Both the position numbers and the translations under genes were made by a program. A stretch of DNA of 35,002 nucleotides from Gammaproteobacteria bacterium. Lineage in GTDB: Bacteria > Pseudomonadota > Gammaproteobacteria > Pseudomonadales > Halieaceae. The DNA lies in NCBI GenBank assembly GCA_003646415.1, contig QNFS01000005.1, forward strand, positions 1-35,002, in the 5' to 3' direction. The number at the start of each line of letters is the position of its first letter. Within the stretch, counting starts at the first letter, position 1. Under the pieces are notes generated by a model, which did no database searches, was not told the origin of the DNA, and worked only from the letters and a program-made list of their open reading frames with translations. Below, in pieces: positions 10,072 through 26,567 of this stretch.

Positions 10072-10470
10072 CTAGCTGATGGGTACCAGCTTCATATGGG
10101 GGGGCGAACCGGGCACAGGCGCCAGAGGCTGGAGCAATTGTGGCCCCGCATTGGACAGCAACTCGCCGGCACCCTCTACCGAACTCATCAACATATGCAA
10201 GGACAAGGCCGCTCGCCCCTCGCTGGAGGCAACCTGCCCCATCAGCGCCGCCAGTCCCTCCTCACAGAGAAAGCCAAGCAACACTGCGTTGGTCAAGTAG
10301 TCCCGGATAATCTGGCGATTGACCTGGTCCTGCAGGTAACCCTGGAAGCCATCATCCCCGAATACGCGCCCCAGGACTTCAATGTCCCGCCCATCCAGAG
10401 GGTGATCCGGGAAAGTGGGGGCTTCACCAAAGGCCCGATCAATGCGCTCTACTATCTTATCAAGATGCAA
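10072..10470 (-). CDS. Hypothetical protein at the end of the chemosensory operon
   Basis: ORF track starts at 10485, but GGAGG lies inside that start; a TTG at 10470 sits 8 nt after GGAGG. 22-nt gap from the upstream CheW-like gene. Confidence 0.7.
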   Translation of the reverse strand: MHLDKIVERIDRAFGEAPTFPDHPLDGRDIEVLGRVFGDDGFQGYLQDQVNRQIIRDYLTNAVLLGFLCEEGLAALMGQVASSEGRAALSLHMLMSSVEGAGELLSNAGPQLLQPLAPVPGSPPHMKLVPIS

Positions 10471-10491
10471 CGTTACAACCTCCAATAAATA

Positions 10492-10941
10492 TCATGCCAT
10501 CGCCTGGCTAGTTGCAATTTTTTTCTGCAAAAGAGCCAGGTCAGGTACCTGATAAACCGCGCCTTGCAACTTGAAAGCCGCAGTGGCATGTTGCTGCGCC
10601 GCCTCAGGGGCATCTTCTACCTGCTGCGCACAAACCCGCTTTACCGCCAGCCCCTCCCCACGAACAGCGATACCCCAGTAATCACAATCCTCCCCTTCAA
10701 GCCCCAGGAAAATAGCGATTAAACCGGCCCCGCCATGCTGCTCCCGCCAAGCAGAGCCATCATCGTTGCCAAAATCCAGGACAGGAACAGACATACCACG
10801 CCAGCTAAGCGCTTCTGGCGGCCGCTCTGTAGCGTCATGCAGCGTGACTATCTCAGCGAGACAGTTTTGTGGCACCGCCCAGGATTCAGTTTTTGAGCAG
10901 GGTATAAGTACACACCAATGCGACACATCATCAGTCATCAT
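10492..10941 (-). CDS. CheW-like protein, ChpC-like
   Basis: WCVLIPCSKTESWAVPQNCLAEIVTL, WRGMSVPVLDFG, YWGIAVRGEGLAVKRV; RBS AAGGAG; starts 7 nt from the CheA stop. Confidence 0.75.
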   Translation of the reverse strand: MMTDDVSHWCVLIPCSKTESWAVPQNCLAEIVTLHDATERPPEALSWRGMSVPVLDFGNDDGSAWREQHGGAGLIAIFLGLEGEDCDYWGIAVRGEGLAVKRVCAQQVEDAPEAAQQHATAAFKLQGAVYQVPDLALLQKKIATSQAMA

Positions 10942-10947
10942 TACTCC

Positions 10948-13900
10948 TTAAGACAGCTGCAGGTCATAGCCGGTAAGCGCACTAATTTGCTCAATCAAAG
11001 CGGAAAAGTTGAACGGTTTACCCATATAACCGTTACATCCCGCATCTCTGGCCAGGGCACGATGCTTCGCACCCGTACGCGAGGTCACCATAATGACGGG
11101 AAGATGCCCGTAACGTTGTGACTTACGAATTTCACGCAGTGTTTCAATGCCGTCTTTGACCGGCATTTCAACATCCAGCAAAACAATATCCGGCAGTCTG
11201 TGGGTAGCGTTTAACAGATCTATCGCCACCATTCCGTTCTCCGCAGTAATGGTTTCCACTCCGACGGTATCCAATTGACTGGTTGCAACCATTCTCTGGG
11301 TTCTGGAATCGTCCACAACCAGCGCCAGCAATGTCCTGTCAGCGTCACTACTGACCGTTACGGGCGCAAAATCCCCGGAGGCGACGCTGGCCACAAGCAG
11401 GTTGAGATCCAATGCCACAATCGCCTCACCGTCGGCCGTAGTGGCTGCACCGGCAACACCGGGGACTGAGGAAAATTGCGCACCCAGAGACCGAACAACC
11501 AGTTCCAGCGCCTCCTCCACATTATCGATGGCGATGGCCATGTGGCGCTGCTCCGAACCGGCGACAATAATGGGAACTGTTGTCCCCCACACACTGCGCT
11601 CCGGCAAACCCACACCCTGGCACAAGGTAGCGAGATAGGCGGGCTCACACTCCATATCAAACAGCGATAAGGTCTTGCCCTGCTCTACCGCCGAATAAAA
11701 CTTATCGACAGCGACATATTCCACCGCGATCAACCCGTTGAGGGGGATGGCATAGGCACCTTCACCCGCCGTGACAAAAAGTGCGCCGTTGACACTGACG
11801 TTGGAAGGAATTCGAATCTCAAAAGAAGTGCCAAGGCCCACCGCAGACTCGATTTGTATATCCCCGCCAAGCTGTTGCAACTCAGTCATCACGATATCCA
11901 TACCCACGCCACGACCTGAAATTTCACTCAGGGTGCTGGCCGTGGAAAAACCCTTGTGGAATATAAGCCTGATGGCTTCTTCATCACTGAGGGCGTCGAC
12001 ATCGATATCCAGGCCTTTGTTATAGGCGGATTCACGAATCCCATCGGCATCCATACCCCGACCATCATCCGCGAGTTTGATAATGTAATCGCCACCTGAT
12101 TTGCGAACATCGATTGTGATGCGCCCGGCGGTTGGCTTGCCCACCGCCAGGCGCTCTTCGGGAGACTCAATACCATGGTCCAATGCATTACGCACCATGT
12201 GCTCCAGAATAATCTGGCAGCGCGCGTAATGATCCCGATCCAGCGCGCCGGCCTCATTGAGCACCTTGAAAGAGACCGTTTTATTCAGGTCCGTGCTCAC
12301 GGTTCTAACGATACGGCGCAGGCCCGGCATCAAGCGCGACATCGGCACTACCCGGGCTGACTGAAGAGAGGATGTAATACTGGAAATCACTGATGACTGC
12401 TGCTTCAATAACGACTCAACGAGTGCGTTCTGGCGACTGGCGACATCGACCAGATCCGCTAAATCTTCCACGCCCTCACGCAATATATTGGCCGCTTCCT
12501 GCAACTCTGAATACTGATCCATCTCCAACGCATCGAGATCAGCTGTCGAGCGGCCACTGCTCGCATTCGCATTCACATTCACATTCAATAAAGCACGGTC
12601 CGCAATCTTGGCAATATGGGACCTTACCGAGGTCAAGCGAGCCTGTAGTTCGGACGAGGCGCGCTTATTGCGCGAAGTGCTCTGGGCAGAGCGCACCCCG
12701 AGTTGCTGGGCCTGGCTGGTCAGGTTCAACAGGTGATCAAGTTTTTCCGAGGTAATACGAACAGACTGCTGTGCCGCAAGCGATTTCGCACCCTCATCCG
12801 CCAACTGTTGATCCCGCTTTTTCTGACGCACCACAGCAGCTTTGTTTTGCCCGGCGGGTGAACCGACCGATTCCACTACAGGCGCCTCAATGCTTGCAGT
12901 CAAATCACTCTGGACAGCCAACGGCTCGTCACCAGCAACAGGGCCACCACCCTGCACAGGGAACTCACTCGCAATATCTCCTCGATGCTCCTGCACAAAC
13001 TCGACCCCACGGACTACCGCATCCAGCCAAACATTCATCATGCGGAAGTAGTCTTGCTCTGCACCGGCCTCGGGACGCGACGTGGCCTCCAGCAAAGTTT
13101 CGAAATTGTGAACCAGGGTGCCGTAACGTTGCAGGCCTACTCCTTTAGCAATCCCCTTGAGGGTGTGTAAAGTTCGCGCCACTGTTGCAAATGTTGAATC
13201 TACCGTCGCGTCCTTTTCCCACTCGCCGAAGGCATCCTCGAGCTTCTCCACCTCAGCGGAACCCTCTTCAATGAAGGCATCAAGGAAATCGGAGAATATC
13301 TCTGTGCTACTTTTGCTGGTATAGCTAAATGTAATTCCCTCAGGAATAAACCAGGCTGCATCTGACCCACCCCGATCAGGGCTTGACACACCGTAAACAT
13401 CATCACGGCTGTCCGCAGAATCCAGTTGATCAGGCTGCTTACTGCCTGCGAACTCATCGACGTCCACACCGCATATTTCATCAATGCCGCCCTGCGGCTG
13501 CTCTATGCTGGAAAATGCGGCTTCAATGTCACTAACAGTAAAGTCGCTGGCAGCAGGCAGCTCACCAAAAATATCTCCCGCAAAAATATCCTCGCCAAAA
13601 CCGGCGCTCTCCATGGGGTCATCTATTGTCCCGCGATCTGCCGCGACCTCCAGAACATCGTCAGTATCACTATCAAACTCTGCCCCGAGAAAATCGTCGA
13701 ACAAAGCATCGATATTCATTTCATCCTGTGGCGCTGCTCCTGTATCCAACCCCTCGGTAAAGTCAGCCCCCACAATATCATCTGCAAAGTCCGTCTCCGA
13801 AACCGAGGCTTTAGTGGCCGGTTGCTCTGCCTCCAACTCAATACTGGTTACCGGCTCAGGCGCAAACTCAGACTGAAGTTCAGCCTTATGATCCTCGGCA

Positions 13901-15312
13901 GTAAACTCGGGGCTGAAAAGATCATTCCAGTTCTCATTAGTCTGCCCGTGAAACAGCCTTACATAAATCGCACTCTGCTCAGACTTGGCAAGATCCTGCA
14001 TTGCCAGCGGCAGTTCCGTGCATATTGCCGTGACAGGCTCAAAATCCTCAGCATAGCAACGCTTGATGGCTTCAGGCTCATTACCCAGCATCACATCGAC
14101 TTCTATAGCATCAGCCGCAAAGCCAAGCGCTTCGATACGTTCGCGTACCTGAGCGGTAACCTCTTCCATAACCAGGGAAATGACTTCGGTGATTGCCGCA
14201 ACCGAGCTGCCGTCAAATCCATCCATGGCACGAAAGTCTTCGTGGTAGTCGATGTCGATTCCAGACGAAGGGTCAACCGCAACTATCCCCTCAGTACATG
14301 CTACTGCGAGTTCGTCCGGATCCGAATCATCATCAACCAGATACTCACCGTCCAGCAGGTATTTATCAAACTCATCATCATCGGCAGGTAGCGCTATACT
14401 CGCCACATAGTCCAGAACATTACCAGGAGCGGCGTCGCTGCTATGGGCAGCATCGTCCTGCATGGTGTCTTCATTCGCTACAGAATAACTACCCGGCTGA
14501 GCCACGATGCAGGGTACCGGCGCTTCACTCAGGTTGATGGAATGTGAGGAATCCAGCTCAACAGACAAATTATCGTGGTCGTTCTCGTCAATGCTCTCAC
14601 CATCGATCTCGTTTGAAATCTCATCATCAACCGTTGCAACTGGCTCTACGTTGCTTTCCACCTCACAGTCATCTGCCGAGAATTCAATATCTCCGCCGCT
14701 CTCGCGCAACTCATGCTCAGCAATATCTATCGGCAGGCTCTCTTCGGCGCGGGGAGGGGTGGTAGTAACCGGTAGCTGCGAGACCGGGGGCTCAACCACT
14801 GACTTGACCCGTTTAATCGACAGGAAGGCCTCTCCTATATCATCTGCTTCTTTTAAACCAAGGATATCCGAGCCATCTGAAACGCCAGCTGTAGAAACCG
14901 AACTATCGGTATACTCCCTGCGGGAATAATCAACAGCCATCGCCGCTCCCGACAAATCGGCCTTGGCATCTGCATCTGCATCTGCATCTGCATCTACAGC
15001 CGGGTTGTCAGAAATATCCGCATAGATATCGCTCCTCTCACTATCTGAGGACATCACTATTTCTTCATTGACATAAGTGGACAACTCATCACTGCCAGCA
15101 TGACCCCTGACCAGGGGTCGGCCAGCTACTTCAGCCTCGTAGGCTGATAGCCCCTCATCACGATAGTCATTACCCGGAACAGTGAAAAGCTTCTCTTCAG
15201 GCTCTGAAAGGTCCATATCCAGGAGCCAGCGCAGGCTCTTTTCTTTCGTATCATCGACGGAATCCACGACTCCTTCGGTTCCCGATTCACAGCGTTCGTT
15301 GTCAGTGTGCAC
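10948..15312 (-). CDS. CheA-type hybrid histidine kinase (ChpA C-terminal-like): acidic N-region, Hpt, dimerisation, HATPase, CheW, REC
   Basis: Hpt RTLHTLKGIAKGVGL; N-box HMVRNALDHGIES; DDGRGMD; SGRGVGMDIV; CheW domain NGALFVTAGEGAYAIPLNGL; C-terminal REC VVDDSRTQR...LLDVEMPVKDG...GKPF. Confidence 0.93.
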   Translation of the reverse strand: MHTDNERCESGTEGVVDSVDDTKEKSLRWLLDMDLSEPEEKLFTVPGNDYRDEGLSAYEAEVAGRPLVRGHAGSDELSTYVNEEIVMSSDSERSDIYADISDNPAVDADADADADAKADLSGAAMAVDYSRREYTDSSVSTAGVSDGSDILGLKEADDIGEAFLSIKRVKSVVEPPVSQLPVTTTPPRAEESLPIDIAEHELRESGGDIEFSADDCEVESNVEPVATVDDEISNEIDGESIDENDHDNLSVELDSSHSINLSEAPVPCIVAQPGSYSVANEDTMQDDAAHSSDAAPGNVLDYVASIALPADDDEFDKYLLDGEYLVDDDSDPDELAVACTEGIVAVDPSSGIDIDYHEDFRAMDGFDGSSVAAITEVISLVMEEVTAQVRERIEALGFAADAIEVDVMLGNEPEAIKRCYAEDFEPVTAICTELPLAMQDLAKSEQSAIYVRLFHGQTNENWNDLFSPEFTAEDHKAELQSEFAPEPVTSIELEAEQPATKASVSETDFADDIVGADFTEGLDTGAAPQDEMNIDALFDDFLGAEFDSDTDDVLEVAADRGTIDDPMESAGFGEDIFAGDIFGELPAASDFTVSDIEAAFSSIEQPQGGIDEICGVDVDEFAGSKQPDQLDSADSRDDVYGVSSPDRGGSDAAWFIPEGITFSYTSKSSTEIFSDFLDAFIEEGSAEVEKLEDAFGEWEKDATVDSTFATVARTLHTLKGIAKGVGLQRYGTLVHNFETLLEATSRPEAGAEQDYFRMMNVWLDAVVRGVEFVQEHRGDIASEFPVQGGGPVAGDEPLAVQSDLTASIEAPVVESVGSPAGQNKAAVVRQKKRDQQLADEGAKSLAAQQSVRITSEKLDHLLNLTSQAQQLGVRSAQSTSRNKRASSELQARLTSVRSHIAKIADRALLNVNVNANASSGRSTADLDALEMDQYSELQEAANILREGVEDLADLVDVASRQNALVESLLKQQSSVISSITSSLQSARVVPMSRLMPGLRRIVRTVSTDLNKTVSFKVLNEAGALDRDHYARCQIILEHMVRNALDHGIESPEERLAVGKPTAGRITIDVRKSGGDYIIKLADDGRGMDADGIRESAYNKGLDIDVDALSDEEAIRLIFHKGFSTASTLSEISGRGVGMDIVMTELQQLGGDIQIESAVGLGTSFEIRIPSNVSVNGALFVTAGEGAYAIPLNGLIAVEYVAVDKFYSAVEQGKTLSLFDMECEPAYLATLCQGVGLPERSVWGTTVPIIVAGSEQRHMAIAIDNVEEALELVVRSLGAQFSSVPGVAGAATTADGEAIVALDLNLLVASVASGDFAPVTVSSDADRTLLALVVDDSRTQRMVATSQLDTVGVETITAENGMVAIDLLNATHRLPDIVLLDVEMPVKDGIETLREIRKSQRYGHLPVIMVTSRTGAKHRALARDAGCNGYMGKPFNFSALIEQISALTGYDLQLS

Positions 15313-15354
15313 AATTATTCTCCGTTATCCGGTTTGGCGACCAGCGCCAGTTTT

Positions 15355-17802
15355 TCAGTGAGCGAGAGTCTCTGAAACCACAGTCCTGTCCGCCATATCG
15401 ACGCTCGAACTTATGACCTCCTTCACGAGCGGCAAATCGTCTGACAGGTCCTTTCCACCAGACCTGGCCATACGAAAACAGTCATTGGTCAATTTGCGAA
15501 TGTATTCAACATCCGGGCCCTCAGCGTTTCTATAGGACAGGACCAGGGCCGGAAGAGCGCTCACCACCTCGTTTACCAGTCGTCCCACCTTGTCATTTGG
15601 GGGCTGGTCGCCGTCCAGCACCCTGTCCAGCATATCCTGAGCCGCCCAACCCAACTCACCAAGAATATTGGCTCCAACCGCACGGCCATTGCCCTTGAAA
15701 GTATGGAAGTGCCTGCGAATATCACGCAACACATCATTGGCGCCGGTATTCTGTGCCCACTTCGCCGACAATCTGGTCAGTTCGGCAACGAGTTCCTCAG
15801 ACTCCTCTATAAACACTTCACGAAATTCCGCTGGAATATCCGAATCCTTTACATAGGCCTTTTCCTGCAGGGCCGGGGTATCCGCAGGGATTTTTGCGTC
15901 TGCAACAACAGCGACGTCCGCACCCGAAGACAACTCGATAATCCACTTGTCCAACTCCGACGCCCGCTGTTCAGCAAGGTTAATCACATGAGAGGTATCA
16001 TCCAGTGGGTCAATGACCGACCGCTGTAAATGCATCTCGATCTGGGCGAAAGCATCGGCGAAGCAGCGGAAAGCATCGTCCTCATGCACACTTCCGGCTT
16101 TGCTGGCGGCAGTGAGCCACTTGTGACACTGCTCGATTACCAGCCCCTCTCTGGCCATACCGGCAAAGCTCAGTGCACCGGCGATTTCAGTCAACAGTTG
16201 CAACGACAAACTAATGGCCTTGCGATCTGGTGTATCCTTCAGTTGATCCAGGTAATCGCTGGCGAGACGGTAGAGTAAATCAATATCCGGGTCACCGTTG
16301 TCTGCATCCCTCACTGCCTGGCGCAGCTCTTCGTGCCCTTTATCTGACTTGTTAAGATGACGCTGCAGGGCGAGCGTCAAACGCATAATGCTTTCCGGAT
16401 CCAGGGGTTTCTTGTCCAGCGCACTCTTCAATGCCTTGCGGCGCAGGATCTGGTGCAGATAATTCTCTACCAGGCTCATCTGGGTAAACGTGGCGGTTGC
16501 GACGCTCTTACGCAATTCAAATTCTCCGCTGGAGAAGGAACTGCACAGGCCGTGTTCGAGCTTGTGCTCCAGGTCCAGTTTGACCTCTACAACACCACGA
16601 ATAATTTCGCTTATCGCCTTCTCGGCTTTCTGGGGCTGATCATTGTAGCCGCCGTTGCATAGCTGGTTGAGTAGCGACTGAACATCATTAAGCGAATCCG
16701 CATGAGTAAACTGCCCCGCGGCCGCCAGGCGACACTGAGCACCCTCTATCGCATCCAGCGCAGAGCTGTCTTCGTTTGGCGAATCTGTCGCTGCAATGGC
16801 TGCCAAATCGTTAGTGTTAAGATAATCCACCACACTATTGAGTTGTTCCAGTGCACCACTGACGGCAGTTACAAGGGCATCGATATGTATCAAGCCACGG
16901 CCTGCCACGTCGACGGTATCGTTATCTATCCCGAATACATCACGCACACCTGATATATGCACCGGCTTGGACTTACAGGATGCCACGTAGTAAAGCATCT
17001 GTAGCAGGTAGCTATCGTAGTCTATGGACTCATCAACCCGGGCACCGTTTTCCCTGGCATATTTAATGGTAAATGCGCCGGCCTTGAATATCTGGGCTAT
17101 GCACTCATCCGGCACTATAAGGCCGCCAGCAATACCCTCACAAAGCCCAATCATGGCAAACCAGAACCTTTCCGGCTTGGAGCCAGCGAAAAGTACCTGC
17201 ATCTTCTTGGATATGCGCGCCACAGTCTTCATACTCTCGTTGACATTGCGTCGTCTCAATGCCTGCTTTGCCATTTCCAGATAGAGCGCCAGCATGACAT
17301 TGGTACGACTTTTTATTTCCTCGTCTGACGCAGGCGATGCGCCAGGTGTGATACCAACACCTGCGTCGATGTCCATGTAGAAGAAAAATGCTTGCGGACG
17401 GGGCCGCTCCCCAACCCAGCGGCGCAGGTCATTAACATATTGCTCCAGGCCACGGCCGGTATCCATTCGCACATTCTGGGTATGCGTCAAATATGCCGGG
17501 ACTACCTTCAGGGCCTGCATCAACCCGCCCATCGTCAGCTTACGCCGCTCGCCGACAACCTTATCCTTGTATAGAAAATTGAGACTGCGCTCCATTTCCA
17601 GGGTCAGCATTTCCAGTTTTTTTATCCCCAGTGCCCGCAGCGTAGAGGTGATCTGGTGAACTGCCCACATGCATTGCAACAGGGGCTGTTTCTGCGCCGG
17701 GTCATTACCATATTCAAGCAAGGCCGCCTCAGCATTCTCAGCCTGCTTGTTCATCAATCCACTCACCCATCTAAGGGAAACAACATCCGGTTTGCTAGCC
17801 AC
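15355..17802 (-). CDS. FimL / ChpA N-terminal-like protein with a C-terminal Hpt domain
   Basis: GTG start at 17802 with GGAGG RBS (ORF track used an upstream ATG at 17853). FimL-like N-terminal region with RPRPQAFFFYMDID; canonical Hpt RRHFHTFKGNGRAVGA near the C-terminus. Confidence 0.82.
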   Translation of the reverse strand: MASKPDVVSLRWVSGLMNKQAENAEAALLEYGNDPAQKQPLLQCMWAVHQITSTLRALGIKKLEMLTLEMERSLNFLYKDKVVGERRKLTMGGLMQALKVVPAYLTHTQNVRMDTGRGLEQYVNDLRRWVGERPRPQAFFFYMDIDAGVGITPGASPASDEEIKSRTNVMLALYLEMAKQALRRRNVNESMKTVARISKKMQVLFAGSKPERFWFAMIGLCEGIAGGLIVPDECIAQIFKAGAFTIKYARENGARVDESIDYDSYLLQMLYYVASCKSKPVHISGVRDVFGIDNDTVDVAGRGLIHIDALVTAVSGALEQLNSVVDYLNTNDLAAIAATDSPNEDSSALDAIEGAQCRLAAAGQFTHADSLNDVQSLLNQLCNGGYNDQPQKAEKAISEIIRGVVEVKLDLEHKLEHGLCSSFSSGEFELRKSVATATFTQMSLVENYLHQILRRKALKSALDKKPLDPESIMRLTLALQRHLNKSDKGHEELRQAVRDADNGDPDIDLLYRLASDYLDQLKDTPDRKAISLSLQLLTEIAGALSFAGMAREGLVIEQCHKWLTAASKAGSVHEDDAFRCFADAFAQIEMHLQRSVIDPLDDTSHVINLAEQRASELDKWIIELSSGADVAVVADAKIPADTPALQEKAYVKDSDIPAEFREVFIEESEELVAELTRLSAKWAQNTGANDVLRDIRRHFHTFKGNGRAVGANILGELGWAAQDMLDRVLDGDQPPNDKVGRLVNEVVSALPALVLSYRNAEGPDVEYIRKLTNDCFRMARSGGKDLSDDLPLVKEVISSSVDMADRTVVSETLAH

Positions 17803-17960
17803 TAGTTCAACCTCCAATTTTGTTGTAGACACATACACCATGCCATCACACACGGCGCATGCTCGACAACCATCGCCATCGAATACAGCCCTTGGCCATA
17901 GCCTTCTGTTTCACTGACACCCAGGCTCTTCATCCGCTCCTGTATACAGTTGGCGCTCAT
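17802..17960 (-). other. 52-aa small ORF overlap-coupled between MCP and FimL-like genes; possible degraded PilK/CheR N-domain remnant or small adaptor
   Basis: MSANCIQERMKSLGVSETEGYGQGLYSMAMVVEHAPCVMAWCMCLQQNWRLN*; start ATGA overlaps the MCP stop, TAG overlaps the next gene's GTG (TAGTG). Confidence 0.55.
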
Positions 17961-19189
17961 ACAGAGGCCCGGGTTTTTTCAGCAGACTCCATGGCGCTCA
18001 TCTCATCCTCACGGTAGACCCGCGAGGCATCCTGAATATGCTTTAAATCCTCGACCACGGAGAGGTCCTGCTCTCCGGTGCGTGCTTTTTCAATCTTGAA
18101 TTGACGGAGATTTTTAGCCACATCGCGCATCGAGGTTTTAAGGCTGCTCACACCTACCTGGGTAGATTCGCTGTATTCACTGATATCAAGGTTCCGCTCA
18201 CGAATCTCGTCCATGGAACTGTTCATATGCCGTGCTGTGTTTGCCGACTGTCCTGCGGCATCATCGACAGATGTAATAATCGAGGTGATCGCCGAGGAAC
18301 CTGCATTGATTTCCTCCAAAGAGGTATCAAGCTTTTCGATATACTGCAGAATGGTTACCACTGTTCCAACCGTATTTTCCATGCTGGAAAGATTGTCGGC
18401 AGACAAGTTTTGCAGCATCCGCACTTCAGTGATAATCTTGCGCCCCTCCTCTTCCGCTTCGCGCAAGAGGTCGCCAATCGCCTCGGCAATGCCAAGAAAA
18501 GGACGACCGTGCTCACCGGCCTTCTCCGCCTCGATACGCGTATTGATCGCTACCACTGAGATCTTGGTATTCAAAGCCTGGATATATTCGGCCGCCGCTG
18601 TTACTGACTGAATCAATTCACCCTGTCGTTTGGCAGATTTTGAGGTTTCCTGCACCGACTCACGCACATTGGCAGACGCTTTAGACATATCCTTGGTAAG
18701 CTCATAGCCCTGCGCAACACGCTGTCTGTTGCTCTCCGAGGTCCTGGCCGCCTCGCCCGTCGATGTCTTGATTTCTTCACTGGTACGCACCATTTCTGTC
18801 GCTGCAGTGGCGGACTCAACGACAGATCGTGTCAATTCTCTTCCTTTGTCCACCTGCCCCTCTGCGGAGATGCCGATTTTAGATATTCCTTCCACAGAAA
18901 CTTCAAATGGTGTTCGAATATTGCGTATAAGTTCTCGCTGGCGCCCGATGGACGCATTAATTTCACGGGCAATATCACGTGTTACTGTGTTTTCGTCCGG
19001 CACATGCACCGTCAGGTCACCCTCGGCAATCTGTATCAGGGCGCTATTAATTTCTGCAATACCCTTCTCTGTATAGCGTACCCGGCGACGCTGGGTAACG
19101 TACATGGCTATCAGTAGTCCCACCGCAACGATGCCAAACACACCGAACAAGATCATTAATGTACCAACGTCATGCAATATATTATTCAT
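17957..19189 (-). CDS. Methyl-accepting chemotaxis protein, PilJ-like, lacking a periplasmic sensor domain
   Basis: Single N-terminal TM (LMILFGVFGIVAVGLLIAMYV), HAMP-like segment, coiled-coil signalling domain with hairpin VVAINTRIEAEKAGEHGRPFLGIAEAIGDLL; RBS AAAGGGAAAGAG. Confidence 0.88.
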   Translation of the reverse strand: MNNILHDVGTLMILFGVFGIVAVGLLIAMYVTQRRRVRYTEKGIAEINSALIQIAEGDLTVHVPDENTVTRDIAREINASIGRQRELIRNIRTPFEVSVEGISKIGISAEGQVDKGRELTRSVVESATAATEMVRTSEEIKTSTGEAARTSESNRQRVAQGYELTKDMSKASANVRESVQETSKSAKRQGELIQSVTAAAEYIQALNTKISVVAINTRIEAEKAGEHGRPFLGIAEAIGDLLREAEEEGRKIITEVRMLQNLSADNLSSMENTVGTVVTILQYIEKLDTSLEEINAGSSAITSIITSVDDAAGQSANTARHMNSSMDEIRERNLDISEYSESTQVGVSSLKTSMRDVAKNLRQFKIEKARTGEQDLSVVEDLKHIQDASRVYREDEMSAMESAEKTRASV

Positions 19190-19748
19190 CGCTCTTTCCC
19201 TTTATTGAATTGTCTGTGGCTGATGCATTCGACAGGTCATCATCTGCAACCAATTTATCTAGATCCAGAACAGCCAGAAATTGGCCCTCGTACTCGAAGC
19301 CTCCCAGTGAAAATTTGGCAAAGTCCGGGTCGACCGGATGGCGCATATCCCGCTGGTCAATATTGAATGTTAAATCTCTTTGAATATCACTGAGGGTAAT
19401 TCCAAAGTACATACCGGGGCGGCGCACTACCATGGCGTAATCACGGGCCCTGCCCGAGTAAGGGCACTTGCGAAACAACACATCTCCACTGAGGATTGGC
19501 AGTAAACCACCTTTAAATGCCGCCACCCCCATCACCCAGGGTTTGGTACCGGGAATAGTCGTTACGGCGGGTGTTTCGATAATTTCTTCGAGCTCACCCT
19601 CTCCCACCAGCAGCGGTATTCCGGCAATACTGAGTGAGGTTCCCACCCAGCGCATCTGGTCATTCTCAAAAGCCGGCGGCGCCACCACGCCATCATAGGC
19701 ATTGATGCGTTCCAGGAGCTCCAGCGATTGCATAGGTGACATCCCCAT
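19182..19748 (-). CDS. CheW-like adaptor, PilI-like
   Basis: VGTSLSIAGIPLLVGEGELEEIIETPAVTTIPGTKPWVMGVAAFKGGLLPILS; 8-nt overlap with the MCP gene. Confidence 0.87.
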   Translation of the reverse strand: MGMSPMQSLELLERINAYDGVVAPPAFENDQMRWVGTSLSIAGIPLLVGEGELEEIIETPAVTTIPGTKPWVMGVAAFKGGLLPILSGDVLFRKCPYSGRARDYAMVVRRPGMYFGITLSDIQRDLTFNIDQRDMRHPVDPDFAKFSLGGFEYEGQFLAVLDLDKLVADDDLSNASATDNSIKGKSDE

Positions 19749-19750
19749 GA

Positions 19751-20179
19751 CTATGCGGCCACCTGCCGCAGAGTATGGTTGTAAATCAACTCACGCAGCA
19801 CACTTTCAGGTGGAATTTTTGTAACGTGAGCCGTGGCTCCCCGCGCACGCCCCTTGGCTATGTCAAATATGCCATCGGAAGAAGACAGCATCACCACCGG
19901 CGTGTTGCGGGTATCTTCCGAATTTCGAATCAAAGTACAGGTCTGGTAACCGTCCAATTCAGGCATGGTGATGTCCAGAAAAATCAGATCAGGTTTAAAG
20001 CGACGCAACATGCCGAGGGCTTTATAACCATCTTCTGCGCACTCCACTTCACAACCCATATTACGCAGGGTATGCGACATCATCATTCGTATGGTTTTGG
20101 CATCATCCACTACCGCAATTTTCACACCGCGGATATCCATCTCTTCATTTAAGTTCGTCTGTTCATTTAGGTTGGTCAT
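19751..20179 (-). CDS. Single-domain response regulator, PilG-like (ORF track start 20191)
   Basis: IAVVDDAKTIRMMMSHTLRNMGCEVECAEDGYKALGMLRRFKPDLIFLDITMPELDGYQ; 2-nt gap to the PilI-like gene. Confidence 0.88.
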   Translation of the reverse strand: MTNLNEQTNLNEEMDIRGVKIAVVDDAKTIRMMMSHTLRNMGCEVECAEDGYKALGMLRRFKPDLIFLDITMPELDGYQTCTLIRNSEDTRNTPVVMLSSSDGIFDIAKGRARGATAHVTKIPPESVLRELIYNHTLRQVAA

Positions 20180-20261
20180 TTTCACCCTCATTTTTCCAGT
20201 TTTGTAATTTGGCGCACAAACTGATTTGCCCTTACAGTATTTGTATAGAGCGTAGGACCAT

Positions 20262-21143: not shown

Positions 21144-23300
21144 TTAGTTTTCCCTCAGGCGTTTCAGGTAAGTTGGTAGAGACACGCCCATAATAGCTGC
21201 CCGATTGGCAGCGCTTATCGCACTGCACTGTGTAATCACGTGAGCAATCAACAGGTCTTGCACCAGTTGTAGCGGTGACTCCGGCAGTTGGGGGGACTCC
21301 CGCACCCACTCTCTGAGCAGTCGGCGAGGTTTCTGCCACCCGGAGTTACCGTTGCGCTCCTCGTCTCGCGACCGTATTTTTGGCAACCAGCGACTGACAT
21401 TTCTTGGCTTGGTGTGCAAAAATTGTGCAGCCTTGGGAATTTCATCCCGATATCTATCCAGTGCCGCCAGCACCACCTCGTCATCGATCCAGGCGCCCAG
21501 CGGTTTGATCACATTCGCGATGAGCAAATTATGCAACACCTCCCCCAGAGCGACGTCAAGCGTCTCCAGCACAGAGGGGATATAGGCGCCATCGTCAGCG
21601 GCATTTGTCTCCACCATGGCCAGGAATGGCTTGGGCGCCGGCAGATAGGGCATTCCATCCGGCGTTATTCCCTTGAATAGCCCCAGGTCTACCGGAGTGA
21701 GCCAGTCCTTTTCTGTTTTCTCCAACGCGTTGACAATGCACTCACGCATTTCACTGATATTTCCCGGCCAATCGTAGAGCAGCATCGCTTGCTCCGCATC
21801 GGGAGTGAACCCTTTCATGTCGCGCGCTCGAAGAATACCTTCCTGGTCCAGCACTTTGTGTGCCCAGCGCAATACAGCCTGTTTGCGGTCCTTGATGGGG
21901 GGCACGTGTATAGGGTAGCCGGCAAACGCACTGGCCAGCGGCGTGATTAAACTCCCCTGGAGTATCAATTTCTCCAGACTGTCAGGAAAGAGCGCTACGA
22001 ATTTGACCCGGGGAAGATACTGCGGTGGGCTGACATCAGCCAGGGTGCGGGAAGTGATCTGGCGGGCCAATTTTAGCTGCGCCTCCGAGTTCATAAGGTG
22101 CGGTGATTTAAAAACCAGGGTCTTGCCTTCCCCACCACCAAGCTCTTTTGCAATGCGGGTATTTGCCTCACTGCGACTACGAAATTCACGACAGTCAACA
22201 GCAATCAGCATTTCAGGCGCGCCGCCTGATTCGTCGTGAATAATTTTGGCAATGTACATTTTGCCAGTGCCCGCAGGGCCGATAATCGCCACAGGAATGT
22301 CCAGCCTTGACAAAAAAATTGCCTGGTCAACGGCGCCCTCCATATTGTCACCGACATAACCCTCTATACCCTTTTCAATGGGCGTTACCAGCGCTGCCTG
22401 TGCTGCGGGGGAAGTCGCCGTTTCCTCACCACGTTCCCTCAAACCAGACAGGGCAGTGGCAAGATTGTCACAGAACACACCATTGTTATTGAGAGCCCGA
22501 CCCACAGACAATTTGCCATCGTCATCAGCAGCTGCCCTGATACGCTGCTCACCACCACCGCATTGCGCTTGCAGCAGCGCGTTATTCGCCGCCAGCAATG
22601 TCGACAGGGGTGTCCTGCCTGTTGTCATTTGCGCCAGCCCCACGCAAATTCGCGCAGCCTGCTGCGCAGGATCCATGTCTAGTCTGCGCAAATGCGACAG
22701 TAGTGCGCGACTGATATCCAGTGCGCCCTCGAGGTCTACATCTCGCAATATAATGATGATGGAGGATGCGGTAGGAAGTGCTACCGCATCCCGGTTTCGA
22801 ATGATATCCAGCAAGCCGGTGCGAATTCCTGTCATCAACTGAGCGGTTTCGGCAAGGCCCCAGTGTTGATCATAGCTAAGCTGGTCGACACCAAGCACAG
22901 CGACAATATCAGATGTTCCGAAGGACCGTGAAAGGTCTGATTCACCCTCATCGAGTAACTTCCACAGCAAGAGATCAGCCGCTGCCCCCCGGCCCTGGGG
23001 AACGAGCATGCCGGCCACAGCAATTTGCCTGCCATCGACCCTGCGAATGAGGAACGGCGGTAGGGCGCTTCTAACTTGCGCCGTCATGGCCAGCATCAGG
23101 GTCGAATCAGCGTTTTCCTCACAACAGATCGCCGTGGACCACAACTTACCGCACAGCGCTGACTGCGTCACTCCCAGTAAGTTTGCAGCCGCCTCATTGT
23201 AATCGTCGATGACGCCGCTTTTCCAGTCGAGGGAAAAGGTTGCCACATCCACCCCCCGAACGTTAAGTGAATCGCACTTGACGCTCTTTGGTTTTCGCAT
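21144..23300 (-). CDS. Degenerate sigma54-activator-like regulator: PAS, degenerate GGDEF-like, AAA+ lacking GAFTGA, two C-terminal Fis-like HTH segments
   Basis: PAS-like N-terminus; Walker A GPAGTGK; LYDWPGNISEMRECI EBP motif; ALDRYRDEIPKAAQFLHTKPRNVSRWLPKI and ANRAAIMGVSLPTYLKRLREN. Confidence 0.82.
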   Translation of the reverse strand: MRKPKSVKCDSLNVRGVDVATFSLDWKSGVIDDYNEAAANLLGVTQSALCGKLWSTAICCEENADSTLMLAMTAQVRSALPPFLIRRVDGRQIAVAGMLVPQGRGAAADLLLWKLLDEGESDLSRSFGTSDIVAVLGVDQLSYDQHWGLAETAQLMTGIRTGLLDIIRNRDAVALPTASSIIIILRDVDLEGALDISRALLSHLRRLDMDPAQQAARICVGLAQMTTGRTPLSTLLAANNALLQAQCGGGEQRIRAAADDDGKLSVGRALNNNGVFCDNLATALSGLRERGEETATSPAAQAALVTPIEKGIEGYVGDNMEGAVDQAIFLSRLDIPVAIIGPAGTGKMYIAKIIHDESGGAPEMLIAVDCREFRSRSEANTRIAKELGGGEGKTLVFKSPHLMNSEAQLKLARQITSRTLADVSPPQYLPRVKFVALFPDSLEKLILQGSLITPLASAFAGYPIHVPPIKDRKQAVLRWAHKVLDQEGILRARDMKGFTPDAEQAMLLYDWPGNISEMRECIVNALEKTEKDWLTPVDLGLFKGITPDGMPYLPAPKPFLAMVETNAADDGAYIPSVLETLDVALGEVLHNLLIANVIKPLGAWIDDEVVLAALDRYRDEIPKAAQFLHTKPRNVSRWLPKIRSRDEERNGNSGWQKPRRLLREWVRESPQLPESPLQLVQDLLIAHVITQCSAISAANRAAIMGVSLPTYLKRLREN

Positions 23301-23305
23301 ATCTG

Positions 23306-24289
23306 CTATAAGGCCCGCCCCTGTGCGGCAGCATCCGGCTCAGCAAATTTTCGCATAGCATAGTCCACCCTTTGCTCTGCAGGCATTTGCCTTCTCTCCT
23401 GCAAGCTCTCTACATGGCGCAGTCGGGGCAACAGACCGCGGCCATTCGCTATCTGGATCGAGAGACCGGGGCGCGCATTGAGTTCCAGCAGTTGAGGACC
23501 AAGGTGCTGGTCCAAAACAATGTCGGTTCCAATATAGCCCAGCCCTATCATATCGTGGCACTGCGCGGCGAGTATCAAAATATCCCGCCACCCGGCTATG
23601 TGGATATCGTTGAGCGGTCGAGCGGTATCCGGGTGCGATTTGATCCGGCGACTGAACTGTACTGCATTCAGGCAACGACCGCTGTCCATCGCCAGCCCCA
23701 GGCCCACGGCACCCTGATGCAGGTTTGCTTTGCCGTCTGAGGCATGTGTGGCCAGGCGCAACATGGCCATCACCGGATAACCACGAAAAACAATGATACG
23801 AATATCGGGAACGCCTTCATGAGAATAGCCGGCAAAGCACTCATCGAAGGCAATCAGATCTTCGATGACCACCACATCGGGTGTTCCCCCGAGAGAATAA
23901 AGGCCGGCGAGAATATTACTCATATGGCGTCGGATATCGGCAACATCTATTTCTACACCAGAGTTCTTGATGAAACGATCACCCCTGCGCCCAACCACCA
24001 CAAGAATACCTTTGCCACCTGAACCCTTGGCCGGCTTGAGCACAAAAGTTTCCCGGTCTACCAACTGCCGCTCGATATGGCTAATCTCGTGTTGCTCCCG
24101 CACCACGAACTGTAACCTGGGCGTGGGTACGCCGTATTCCTGCGCCAGCAATTTGGTTTTGAGTTTATTGTCGACCAGTGGATAAAGCCTGCGATCATTG
24201 TAACGGTTGATGAATTCAACATTGCGACAATTCATTCCCAGCATACCCTGTTGCCGCAAGCGTGCGGGCTTGATCCAGGCGATGCCCAT
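23306..24289 (-). CDS. RimK-like ATP-grasp alpha-L-glutamate ligase homologue
   Basis: FINRYNDRRLYPLVDNKLKTKLLAQEYGVPTPRL, FVLKPAKGSGGKGILVV, LLELNARPGLSIQIANGRGL. Confidence 0.9.
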   Translation of the reverse strand: MGIAWIKPARLRQQGMLGMNCRNVEFINRYNDRRLYPLVDNKLKTKLLAQEYGVPTPRLQFVVREQHEISHIERQLVDRETFVLKPAKGSGGKGILVVVGRRGDRFIKNSGVEIDVADIRRHMSNILAGLYSLGGTPDVVVIEDLIAFDECFAGYSHEGVPDIRIIVFRGYPVMAMLRLATHASDGKANLHQGAVGLGLAMDSGRCLNAVQFSRRIKSHPDTARPLNDIHIAGWRDILILAAQCHDMIGLGYIGTDIVLDQHLGPQLLELNARPGLSIQIANGRGLLPRLRHVESLQERRQMPAEQRVDYAMRKFAEPDAAAQGRAL

Positions 24290-25803
24290 CAGAGGTCGTC
24301 CATCGCCCGAAAGCGCCGCAGCTCGGACAGTTTGTACCCGGTATATTTCCCCATCGCCAATATCAGGGCCAACAATACCAGGTTCAGTTCAGGAAAGTTA
24401 AAGGTGAGATGCTTCAGCAGTGGCCACTGCATCAACAGGTAGGCGATAACGGCGACAACCAGGCTGCCACCGCCTTGTATCAGGACTTCATGAGGCCCTT
24501 CCTCCTCCCACAAAATAGACATGCGCTCGATGGTCCAGGCGATAATAATCATAGGGAAAAACGTGATAGTCATGCCCGTGCTATAGCCCATCTGGTAACC
24601 GATAATACTAAGTGCTGAAATAACAAATATAACCAGCACGATAAGGGTGGCAATTCTGGCCACCAATAAGAGGTTGAGACGCGAAAGATAGCTGCGCAAA
24701 ACCAGGCCTATACCAACCACCGATACAAAGCTGATTAACCCGGGCAGTAGCGAGGTTTGCAGAAAAGCCAGTGAAATCAATATCGGCATAAAAGTACCGG
24801 CAGTTTGCAAACCGATAATCACTCGCATGAATACAACAACCGCTGCTCCCAGGGGAAGCAGTAGTAGTAATTTGAACATGCTCTGCTCTTCTATTGGCAA
24901 GCGGAGCACACCGAGTCTGGAAAAGATGCTTTCGCTGCCCTTAGCCATTGACAACTGCCGGGCCGAAATAGTCTGGCGAATCATCGAGAAACTGACGTGC
25001 GACCTCCGCCCTCCGGTGACATCCAGCACCGAAACCCCACCGCGATGCCAGAGCAGAAGATTTATCGGGACACCGGTCTCACCAGTTTTTGGATTGAACA
25101 ACAACCAGCGCTCCCCTGTGTGAATCTCCACCATCGGCATCAACACCTGCCGGCGGCGGGCATCTTCCAGATAAAGCCCCATCACAGAACGTGTGGCTAT
25201 ACCCGCGCGATCCAATAAGCGCATCAGCAGCTGCGCCTGACTCGTTTGATCCGAGCGCAGCAATGCCGTGTTCTGGTCTGATGACGGGTTATTAAGCAAT
25301 TTTATCAATTCCCGGGACAGGCTCTGGGGGGAACTGGATGTCTCCTGTGCGCGGCCAAGTACTTGCCCGGCAGCCAGCTCCTGCGCATCGTCCCAGTAGA
25401 TGGGGTGATCCTCATACACCGGATCGGCAGTAGCGGAATCCGCCGTGTCAGATGCGACAAACTGGGCACTGTAGTAAAGCGACTGTTCTCCCCGGGCCTC
25501 ACGTTTGGTCCACTCGGCGCGCCTGTCGCCATTTTCCCTAACGATTGAAAATCCATAACCGGGGGACGCTGATTGCTCTTCGTAGAGTTCAAATCCCGGC
25601 AGCTGTTTATCGGGCAGGCTGAGGCTGGCGTCGACCGCGCCGCCCTTCGCCACAAAATCGACCCTGGCCTCTACCAGCCAAACAGATTTTTCCTGCCCAG
25701 GAAAAAATGGAATGCCGGTTTCCATGTGCCGCAGTATGGCAACCAAAATCGCACATAAAGCGAGTAATACCAGCACCGTGTGGAATGTCAGCCTGGCACT
25801 CAC
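24289..25803 (-). CDS. Inactive transglutaminase-like protein fused to 7 TM helices
   Basis: N-terminal TM, periplasmic transglutaminase-like region (RLLDRAGIATRSVMGLYLED), then multiple TMs (LLLLLPLGAAVVVFMRVIIGLQTAGTFMPILISLAFLQTSL). Confidence 0.88.
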   Translation of the reverse strand: MSARLTFHTVLVLLALCAILVAILRHMETGIPFFPGQEKSVWLVEARVDFVAKGGAVDASLSLPDKQLPGFELYEEQSASPGYGFSIVRENGDRRAEWTKREARGEQSLYYSAQFVASDTADSATADPVYEDHPIYWDDAQELAAGQVLGRAQETSSSPQSLSRELIKLLNNPSSDQNTALLRSDQTSQAQLLMRLLDRAGIATRSVMGLYLEDARRRQVLMPMVEIHTGERWLLFNPKTGETGVPINLLLWHRGGVSVLDVTGGRRSHVSFSMIRQTISARQLSMAKGSESIFSRLGVLRLPIEEQSMFKLLLLLPLGAAVVVFMRVIIGLQTAGTFMPILISLAFLQTSLLPGLISFVSVVGIGLVLRSYLSRLNLLLVARIATLIVLVIFVISALSIIGYQMGYSTGMTITFFPMIIIAWTIERMSILWEEEGPHEVLIQGGGSLVVAVIAYLLMQWPLLKHLTFNFPELNLVLLALILAMGKYTGYKLSELRRFRAMDDL

Positions 25804-26567
25804 GGTGCAACTTCACCGCTGCCAACCGTGACATAGGGGGCAATATTTTTTTTGCTGACATCCACCACCATAACATCCTGGAGGATGTTACGACCTATCA
25901 GGAGTTGGTAATCCAGATGGCTGCGATTGCTCAGGGTAAATTCTGCAGTTTGGCTGATAGAACCGATGGTCACTCCCAGCTTGATAACGGGCCGGCGCTC
26001 AGCCTCAGCTGTGTTCGACTGGATAATAGCGACCATGCGCTTGAGCTTGCGCTCTATAAGCAGGGGCTCACCAGTATCTGGAAGTAGTATCTCAAACCGC
26101 ACCCACCGCTTGCCATCTCGCTCAAACAGCTCGATGTTGCGCGCATCCACAGAGGCCGTTTCGGCACCGGTATCAATCCTGGCGGGGAGGGCCAGTTCCA
26201 GATTCTGCAGCCAAACCTGCTCCAGTTCTCCCACAACCAGTTTGGACGATACTTTCGATGATCCGGCACAGGCCTCAACCGCGGGCATAGGCCCGGATAC
26301 ATCATCCAGAGGCGCTGCGGTTGCCGCTGCCAGCCCCTCGGTCATTTCATCCAGTTGCAGCATTTGCCGATCCAGTCGTTGCGCCTGACTCTGCAATTGC
26401 TCATTGGTCAGGACCTGATTTGCCAGACACTTATCCATACCCGCGATCAGTCGCCCTATGCGTGGGTCCTCAGGTTCCTCAACAGGGGCTATAGCGCTGC
26501 AGGCTGCCAACAACACAGGGATTAGCAGCACTACTGCGAAAAACAGGCTCTTGATAAAGGAACTCAT
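25800..26567 (-). CDS. Lipoprotein RimB/ATP-dependent zinc protease-like (retropepsin-like fold, PF05618-type)
   Basis: Lipobox LLAAC; ALPARIDTGAETASVDARNIELFERDGKRWVRFEI; NRSHLDYQLLIGRNIL; 4-nt overlap with the 7TM gene. Confidence 0.9.
   Translation of the reverse strand: MSSFIKSLFFAVVLLIPVLLAACSAIAPVEEPEDPRIGRLIAGMDKCLANQVLTNEQLQSQAQRLDRQMLQLDEMTEGLAAATAAPLDDVSGPMPAVEACAGSSKVSSKLVVGELEQVWLQNLELALPARIDTGAETASVDARNIELFERDGKRWVRFEILLPDTGEPLLIERKLKRMVAIIQSNTAEAERRPVIKLGVTIGSISQTAEFTLSNRSHLDYQLLIGRNILQDVMVVDVSKKNIAPYVTVGSGEVAP

Follow-up and report, generated by a model that had tools for sequence, protein, structure and literature searches.

The closest described counterpart of the locus reported here is the Pil-Chp pathway of Pseudomonas aeruginosa, which is encoded by pilGHIJK-chpABC and belongs to the type IV pilus (Tfp) class of chemosensory systems, in which the CheA kinase carries more than one Hpt domain and a C-terminal REC domain and lacks a P2 domain (PMC10782961). 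Removal of residues 39-303 of the P. aeruginosa receptor PilJ (allele pilJ-deltaLBD1-2) leaves twitching at wild-type levels and abolishes chemotaxis, and directed movement in this organism requires PilK, ChpB and a methylation site (PMC10896506). Loss of pilH function results in persistent forward twitching and high cyclic AMP, and FimL and ChpA recruit PilG to the pole (PMC10519157). In Acinetobacter baylyi the operon is pilGHIJ-chpA (PMC5542475), and A. baumannii has a working Pil-Chp system without PilK, ChpB or ChpC (PMC8088505). Here we analyse a Pil-Chp operon on a 35,002-nucleotide stretch of DNA from a marine member of the Halieaceae (contig QNFS01000005.1, hereafter the window) whose PilJ has lost its entire periplasmic domain, and we present evidence that the same loss has happened independently elsewhere in the family.

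The window is the whole of contig C5 of a genome bin (G000; 2.93 Mb in 367 contigs, 87.8% complete, 6.2% contaminated), the one metagenome-assembled genome that represents its species. Its closest relatives in the species collection are Halieaceae (Halioglobus, Haliea, Parahaliea and Pseudohalioglobus), among them a sister of the same genus (G001, 91% complete). Gene maps were compared across some 60 loci; 48 clusters of the type found in the window, in which ChpA is split between two genes, could be scored for PilJ length and pilK.

Results

The methyl-accepting chemotaxis protein (MCP) encoded in the window is an orthologue of PilJ from which the first transmembrane helix (TM1) and the whole periplasmic domain have been deleted in frame. 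Its residues 5-410 align at 86% identity with residues 312-718 of the 718-codon PilJ frame of the sister genome, the overlap between the pilI stop and the MCP start is identical in the two genomes (AAAGAGCGATGA...), and after the first codons the window sequence picks up at the second helix, TM2 (ATATTGCATGACGTTGGTACATTAATG in the window genome, AGATTGTATGACCGTGGAACATTGATG in the sister). Since the remaining half of PilJ is clearly orthologous, the missing ectodomain is a derived loss. An earlier note, made from the letters of this DNA alone, had described a short MCP; short it is, and what the note had not recognised is that it is PilJ minus TM1 and ectodomain. By hydropathy, the protein retains a single TM helix (residues ~11-29, equivalent to TM2 of full-length PilJ), a HAMP-like linker and the MCP signalling hairpin. 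The N-terminal tail, MNNILHDVGTL, has no positive charge and QRRR follows TM2, so the HAMP side of the protein should remain cytoplasmic.

Because the Pfam model PF13675 is weak on this lineage, we checked ectodomain homology with the ectodomain of the sister PilJ. This query finds matches in 40 of the fetched loci, including 11 of the 12 canonical pil-chp loci (E 1e-21 to 1e-39), and in none of the 19 loci with a short PilJ; nor does it find any ectodomain remnant in the 35-kb contig. The PilJ-type periplasmic domain that characterises the Tfp class is thus absent from the window genome and 18 other clusters and present in their close orthologues, and canonical PilJ frames of relatives in the order are almost all about 690-750 codons long. 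The sole PF13675 match in the bin (G000:C20:21586-21870, in a 623-aa frame) was considered as a second PilJ and rejected; it looks NarX-like (a nitrate sensor kinase) and has no MCP signalling domain.

A short PilJ occurs in 19 of the 48 scorable clusters, and on the cluster tree these map to three independent losses. The first is the window genome alone. The second comprises eight genomes of a Halioglobus-like genus (g6; ultrafast bootstrap, UFBoot, 100), in which TM1 and TM2 survive and are joined by a short loop. The third is a clade of ten, Haliea/Kineobactrum/EAC94, five of which have lost TM1 as well. Isolates with a short PilJ include Haliea salexigens, H. alexandrii and Kineobactrum sediminis. 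FastTree's placement of G135 would imply two losses within g6; IQ-TREE recovers a single clade at the support given above, and one loss was counted. The short PilJ frames of G144 and G017 are contig-end cuts and were left out.

What remains of the truncated receptor evolves under purifying selection. The ratio of nonsynonymous to synonymous substitution rates (dN/dS) between truncated pilJ orthologues is 0.03-0.16 (0.11 between the window genome and its sister) and is similar to or below that of pilI in most pairs. The signalling tip is conserved at 0.92-1.00, equally in the group with pilK, the pilK-less group with full-length PilJ and the short-PilJ group; the flanking helices drift more in the last of these, which, the groups differing in diversity, is only suggestive. 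The rest of the phosphorelay is intact in the window: both Hpt histidines, the N, G1 and G2 boxes of the kinase, and the aspartates of the fused REC domain and of PilG are in place, and PilG has its acid pocket, phospho-Asp, S/T and K. PilG and PilI are 93% and 86% identical, respectively, to their counterparts in the sister.

Neither CheR (PF01739) nor CheB (PF01339) was found in the window's bin (88% complete) or in that of the sister. The earlier note's statement that the operon has no CheR/PilK, CheB/ChpB or PilH is borne out, and for CheR and CheB the absence extends to the whole bin; the bin-wide search that it proposed for cheR, cheB and a second cluster found none, the bin containing a single MCP and the only two matches to the CheW model lying in the window operon. 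Relatives with complete-grade genomes (G012 and G047, 100%; G132, 99%) also lack CheR and CheB, and the absence is therefore not merely bin incompleteness. Comparing synteny among relatives, as the note also proposed, shows that pilK, where it is kept, occupies the interval separating the MCP and Hpt genes and that cheB, where kept, lies between pilG and an upstream gene, us291. Among scorable clusters pilK is present in 16 and absent from 32 (nine losses under Dollo parsimony), and cheB is present in eight and absent from 36 (12 losses). Fitch parsimony alone would allow gains of pilK (eight changes with an ancestrally absent root, against the nine Dollo losses); because the pilK gene tree tracks the cluster tree apart from weak nodes, we set gain by transfer aside and read the absences as losses. 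Repeated loss of pilK and cheB among relatives makes the missing enzymes ordinary in this lineage. The best matches in the window MCP to the methylation consensus [ASTG]2-xx-[EQ]2-xx-[ASTG]2 are 9 of 10, likewise in relatives that keep pilK. Ectodomain loss is not associated with pilK loss (Fisher p = 0.54; the sequences are not independent and the value is descriptive only), and a strict order in which pilK goes first and the ectodomain second was rejected on this result and on five short-PilJ genomes with pilK. The PilK and ChpB pair counted among the marks of the Tfp class is missing from the window, and it is not universal in the class, being absent also in Acinetobacter. As a working Pil-Chp system without PilK and ChpB has already been published, the note was right about the missing methylation enzymes and the observation is not new. 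The loss of the PilJ ectodomain appears to be the more unusual feature, the receptor type having so far been known, it seems, as an engineered mutant; we found no natural ectodomain-less PilJ in the published literature (open-access papers only, so that some could be missed).

The window operon is a Halieaceae-specific lineage of the Pil-Chp pathway. A profile of the PilJ signalling half matches nine of 390 genomes of the order, all nine within the family, and the 45 loci drawn from the species collection all belong to Halieaceae or to gammaproteobacterial bins; 56 of the 140 family genomes have any match to the system at 1e-10, several relatives being without it. The conserved order is GGDEF/AAA gene, us291, (cheB), pilG, pilI, pilJ, (pilK), FimL-like Hpt gene, CheA-REC gene, ChpC-like gene and unk137. 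The window thus has the Tfp-class order pilG-pilI-pilJ-chpA, with pilH absent and ChpA in two genes: its FimL-like protein and its CheA-REC kinase align with the N- and C-terminal parts of the 2008-aa fused ChpA of another Halieaceae genome (G007), the former with residues 13-687 and 740-855, and it is on this homology to the ChpA N terminus that the label FimL-like rests. Pfam finds two Hpt domains in that fused ChpA and one in each gene of the split form, and the simplest reading of the alignments would be that a single ChpA gene was split in two. More than one Hpt with a C-terminal REC is found only if both halves are counted together; Pfam finds no P2 domain in the window CheA. In the gene maps, pilH is absent from the split-type clusters and from the canonical clusters of G007, G009, G055 and G057, and the canonical cluster of G023 retains a second single-domain REC gene after pilG. 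Two genomes, G008 and G023, carry the split-type lineage beside a canonical one. We also note that genus g12 is mixed: two of its species (G055 and G057; loci L092 and L093) possess the canonical system with a fused ChpA, and the remaining ones are of the split type. Between split-type and canonical PilJ (for example L035:15066-17153) the ectodomains are 29-37% identical and the signalling halves only about 22-28%; because the ectodomain is the better conserved, the cytoplasmic half has either diverged unusually or been exchanged.

The seven-gene, minus-strand, Pil-Chp-like operon that the earlier note described is present at 20191-10072 with the expected Pfam domains (Table 1). Its intervals are 2 nt between pilG and pilI, an 8-nt overlap between pilI and the MCP gene, 103 nt between the MCP and Hpt genes, and then 42, 6 and 6 nt; the note's range of a few to about 40 nt describes every junction except the 103-nt one. 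Its seven genes hold too, and the conserved block reaches further upstream, to us291 and the GGDEF/AAA gene. The CheA-REC protein consists of an acidic low-complexity N terminus, one Hpt, the kinase core (HATPase_c), a CheW domain and REC, and the ChpC-like gene is kept at the same position in most split-type loci. A scan for promoters and terminators gave matches at chance level.

Table 1. Positions in the window of the operon genes, the pilK slot and the conserved upstream genes
Feature	Positions	Strand	Description
pilG	19751..20191	-	146 aa, single-domain CheY-like response regulator; alternative ATG at 20179; PF00072 E 2.2e-23
pilI	19182..19748	-	188 aa, CheW adaptor; PF01584 E 1.5e-13; overlaps MCP gene start
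pilJ without ectodomain	17957..19189	-	410 aa; PF00015
MCP-Hpt intergenic gap	17854..17956	-	103 nt; exact position of pilK in relatives retaining it
FimL/ChpA-N-like Hpt protein	15355..17853	-	832 aa; one C-terminal Hpt, PF01627 E 1.5e-13; phospho-His at 717
CheA-REC kinase	10948..15312	-	1454 aa; PF01627, PF02518, PF01584, PF00072; catalytic motifs intact
ChpC-like CheW protein	10492..10941	-	149 aa; PF01584 sub-threshold (16.4 bits; cut-off 23.5)
unk137	10072..10485	-	137 aa, small helical protein; final operon gene; no Pfam match
us291	20464..~21081	-	Conserved helical protein of no known family; start uncertain, ORF (open reading frame) opens at 21339
Degenerate GGDEF + AAA regulator	21144..23300	-	718 aa, sigma-54-activator-like; PF14532, PF25601, PF00990

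Three accessory genes accompany the lineage. Of the split-type loci long enough to include the region upstream of pilG, nearly all carry us291 there; it matched no family, and a fold search gave nothing significant. The GGDEF/AAA gene adjoins us291 in most split-type loci. In the window its GGDEF domain is weak and a GAFTGA motif was not seen by eye, and the protein may therefore not act on sigma-54. Next to it, at 23306-26567 on the minus strand, are genes for an ATP-grasp protein, an inactive transglutaminase-7TM protein and a zinc protease, an adjacency retained only in the sister and some g6 genomes. The unk137 protein has 42-62% identity to its counterparts in 27 other clusters, and an AlphaFold2 model has five helices (predicted local distance difference test score, pLDDT, 81); searches of Pfam, PDB sequences and PDB folds gave no match. 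It is conserved in the main lineage and was not found in the Haliea/Kineobactrum/EAC94 clade.

As for the pilus itself, the window's bin encodes a TfpB/PilB ATPase and a contig-cut PilT/U, and PilT-family ATPases are present in nearly all family members. The bin also encodes two near-identical 758-aa proteins (L142:1450-3723 and L143, on G000:C24 and C27) in which a protein-isoaspartate-methyltransferase-like domain is fused to a PilB/GspE-like ATPase; these are either paralogues or the product of mixed strains in the bin.

Discussion

We think it probable that the window encodes a Pil-Chp module that is blind to periplasmic signals and free of adaptation and that continues to govern pilus activity or polarity by setting the phosphorylation of PilG. 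The truncated PilJ, PilI and CheA-REC would likely assemble into a membrane-anchored kinase platform, with PilJ contributing TM2, the HAMP-like linker and the kinase-contacting tip. Phosphate would likely travel from CheA to PilG by way of two Hpt domains, one in CheA itself and one in its FimL-like partner; the fused REC might act as a sink, and phosphorylated PilG would likely set pilus extension and pole use. Its level would be fixed by expression or by the state of the cytoplasm or membrane, with no part played by a periplasmic ligand and a memory based on methylation. We propose this platform because of the combined findings from P. aeruginosa on pilJ-deltaLBD1-2, PilK and ChpB, pilH and the recruitment of PilG. 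Several points weigh against it. A bin that is 88% complete and 6% contaminated may lack a CheR or CheB gene that the organism possesses. Five genomes with a short PilJ keep pilK, two of them also cheB, so those receptors may still adapt. The window MCP has evolved slightly faster than that of the sister (78.3 against 84.0% identity to G002), and the site of input may have shifted to the TM/HAMP region or to a different protein.

This last point is the most serious alternative, and we give it perhaps one chance in four. On this view the single TM helix and HAMP region of the truncated PilJ would sense membrane tension, energy state or contact with the base of the pilus, or else PilJ would be driven by a partner in the cytoplasm, for which the FimL-like protein, us291, unk137 and the GGDEF/AAA regulator are candidates. 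In its favour, MCPs that lack an ectodomain and take their input from the cytoplasm are well known, purifying selection has preserved the signalling tip and every part of the kinase, and co-conserved companions lie on both sides of the core genes, us291 and the GGDEF/AAA gene upstream and unk137 downstream. However, the window MCP shows no newly acquired input domain, unk137 is absent from one of the three lineages that lost the ectodomain, Haliea/Kineobactrum/EAC94, and full-length PilJ is accompanied by the partner genes to the same extent, none having appeared in the ectodomain's place.

It is improbable that the system is instead decaying, under relaxed selection after the loss of sensing and on its way to disappearance. 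The many family genomes without a match would fit such an end point, as would the raised rate of the window MCP and a Kineobactrum relative (G075, locus L089, a single-contig genome) in which pilI, the FimL-like gene and cheA each lie in two ORFs, the result of either decay or sequencing errors. Nevertheless, truncated PilJ is intact and has long been constrained, at the dN/dS values given above, and in the window genome every operon gene is open, with its catalytic residues in place. An assembly or binning artefact is very improbable as the origin of the window's deletion: the bin is fragmented and contaminated, but the junction is in frame and keeps the overlapping start, divergence from the sister exceeds that of a recent error, the contig holds no ectodomain sequence, and like losses occur in two other lineages that include the isolates named above. 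Equally remote is the earlier note's suggestion of a second, specialised copy, one that would share the cell with a canonical Pil-Chp, an arrangement that G008 and G023 do have and that the single MCP and the two CheW matches refute within this bin; its other suggestion, an adaptation-free variant, is supported to the extent that a bin of 88% completeness can show, there being no CheR, CheB or other MCP here and none in the sister.

For the family as a whole, we advance more tentatively, at somewhat short of an even chance, the view that Pil-Chp has been converted at least three times in Halieaceae, by excision of the ectodomain, from a chemoreceptor system to a sensor-independent module for pilus polarity or activity. 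If so, the selected core function of Pil-Chp would be to set polar PilG phosphorylation, and periplasmic sensing and methylation would be dispensable additions, which bears on a debate about the main role of PilJ, as chemoreceptor, as sensor of surfaces or as structural activator of the kinase. The family provides a natural series in which full-length PilJ occurs with PilK and CheB (Halioglobus pacificus) and without both (Pseudohalioglobus), and the ectodomain-less form occurs with PilK (Halioglobus japonicus BC5_1) and without it (Haliea salexigens); comparing the members of this series would show what ectodomain and adaptation each contribute to pilus control.

With the P. aeruginosa system the window shares the order pilG-pilI-pilJ-(pilK)-ChpA-ChpC, a multi-Hpt CheA with a C-terminal REC domain and an Hpt-bearing FimL-like partner; it differs in lacking pilH, pilK and chpB, in having ChpA split with one Hpt on each part, in a PilJ without TM1 and ectodomain, and in its additional conserved us291, GGDEF/AAA and unk137 genes. 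Acinetobacter (A. baylyi ADP1 and A. baumannii), with pilGHIJ-chpA, resembles the window in lacking pilK and chpB, but it also lacks chpC and, unlike the window, retains pilH (PMC5542475, PMC8088505). The canonical systems of Halieaceae (G007, G009, G055 and G057) belong to the same family and, like the window, have no pilH in the cluster, yet they have a fused ChpA of 1800-2060 aa and a full-length PilJ whose signalling half is only distantly similar (~22-28% identity). The nearest laboratory equivalent is pilJ-deltaLBD1-2 of P. aeruginosa, from which the same part of PilJ has been removed and the cytoplasmic half kept, a design that the g6 and Kineobactrum forms, with TM1, a short loop and TM2, closely match. 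The loss in Halieaceae, in contrast, is natural and fixed, has taken TM1 as well in the window genome and five Haliea genomes, and in the window genome, unlike the engineered strain, is combined with the absence of PilK and ChpB.

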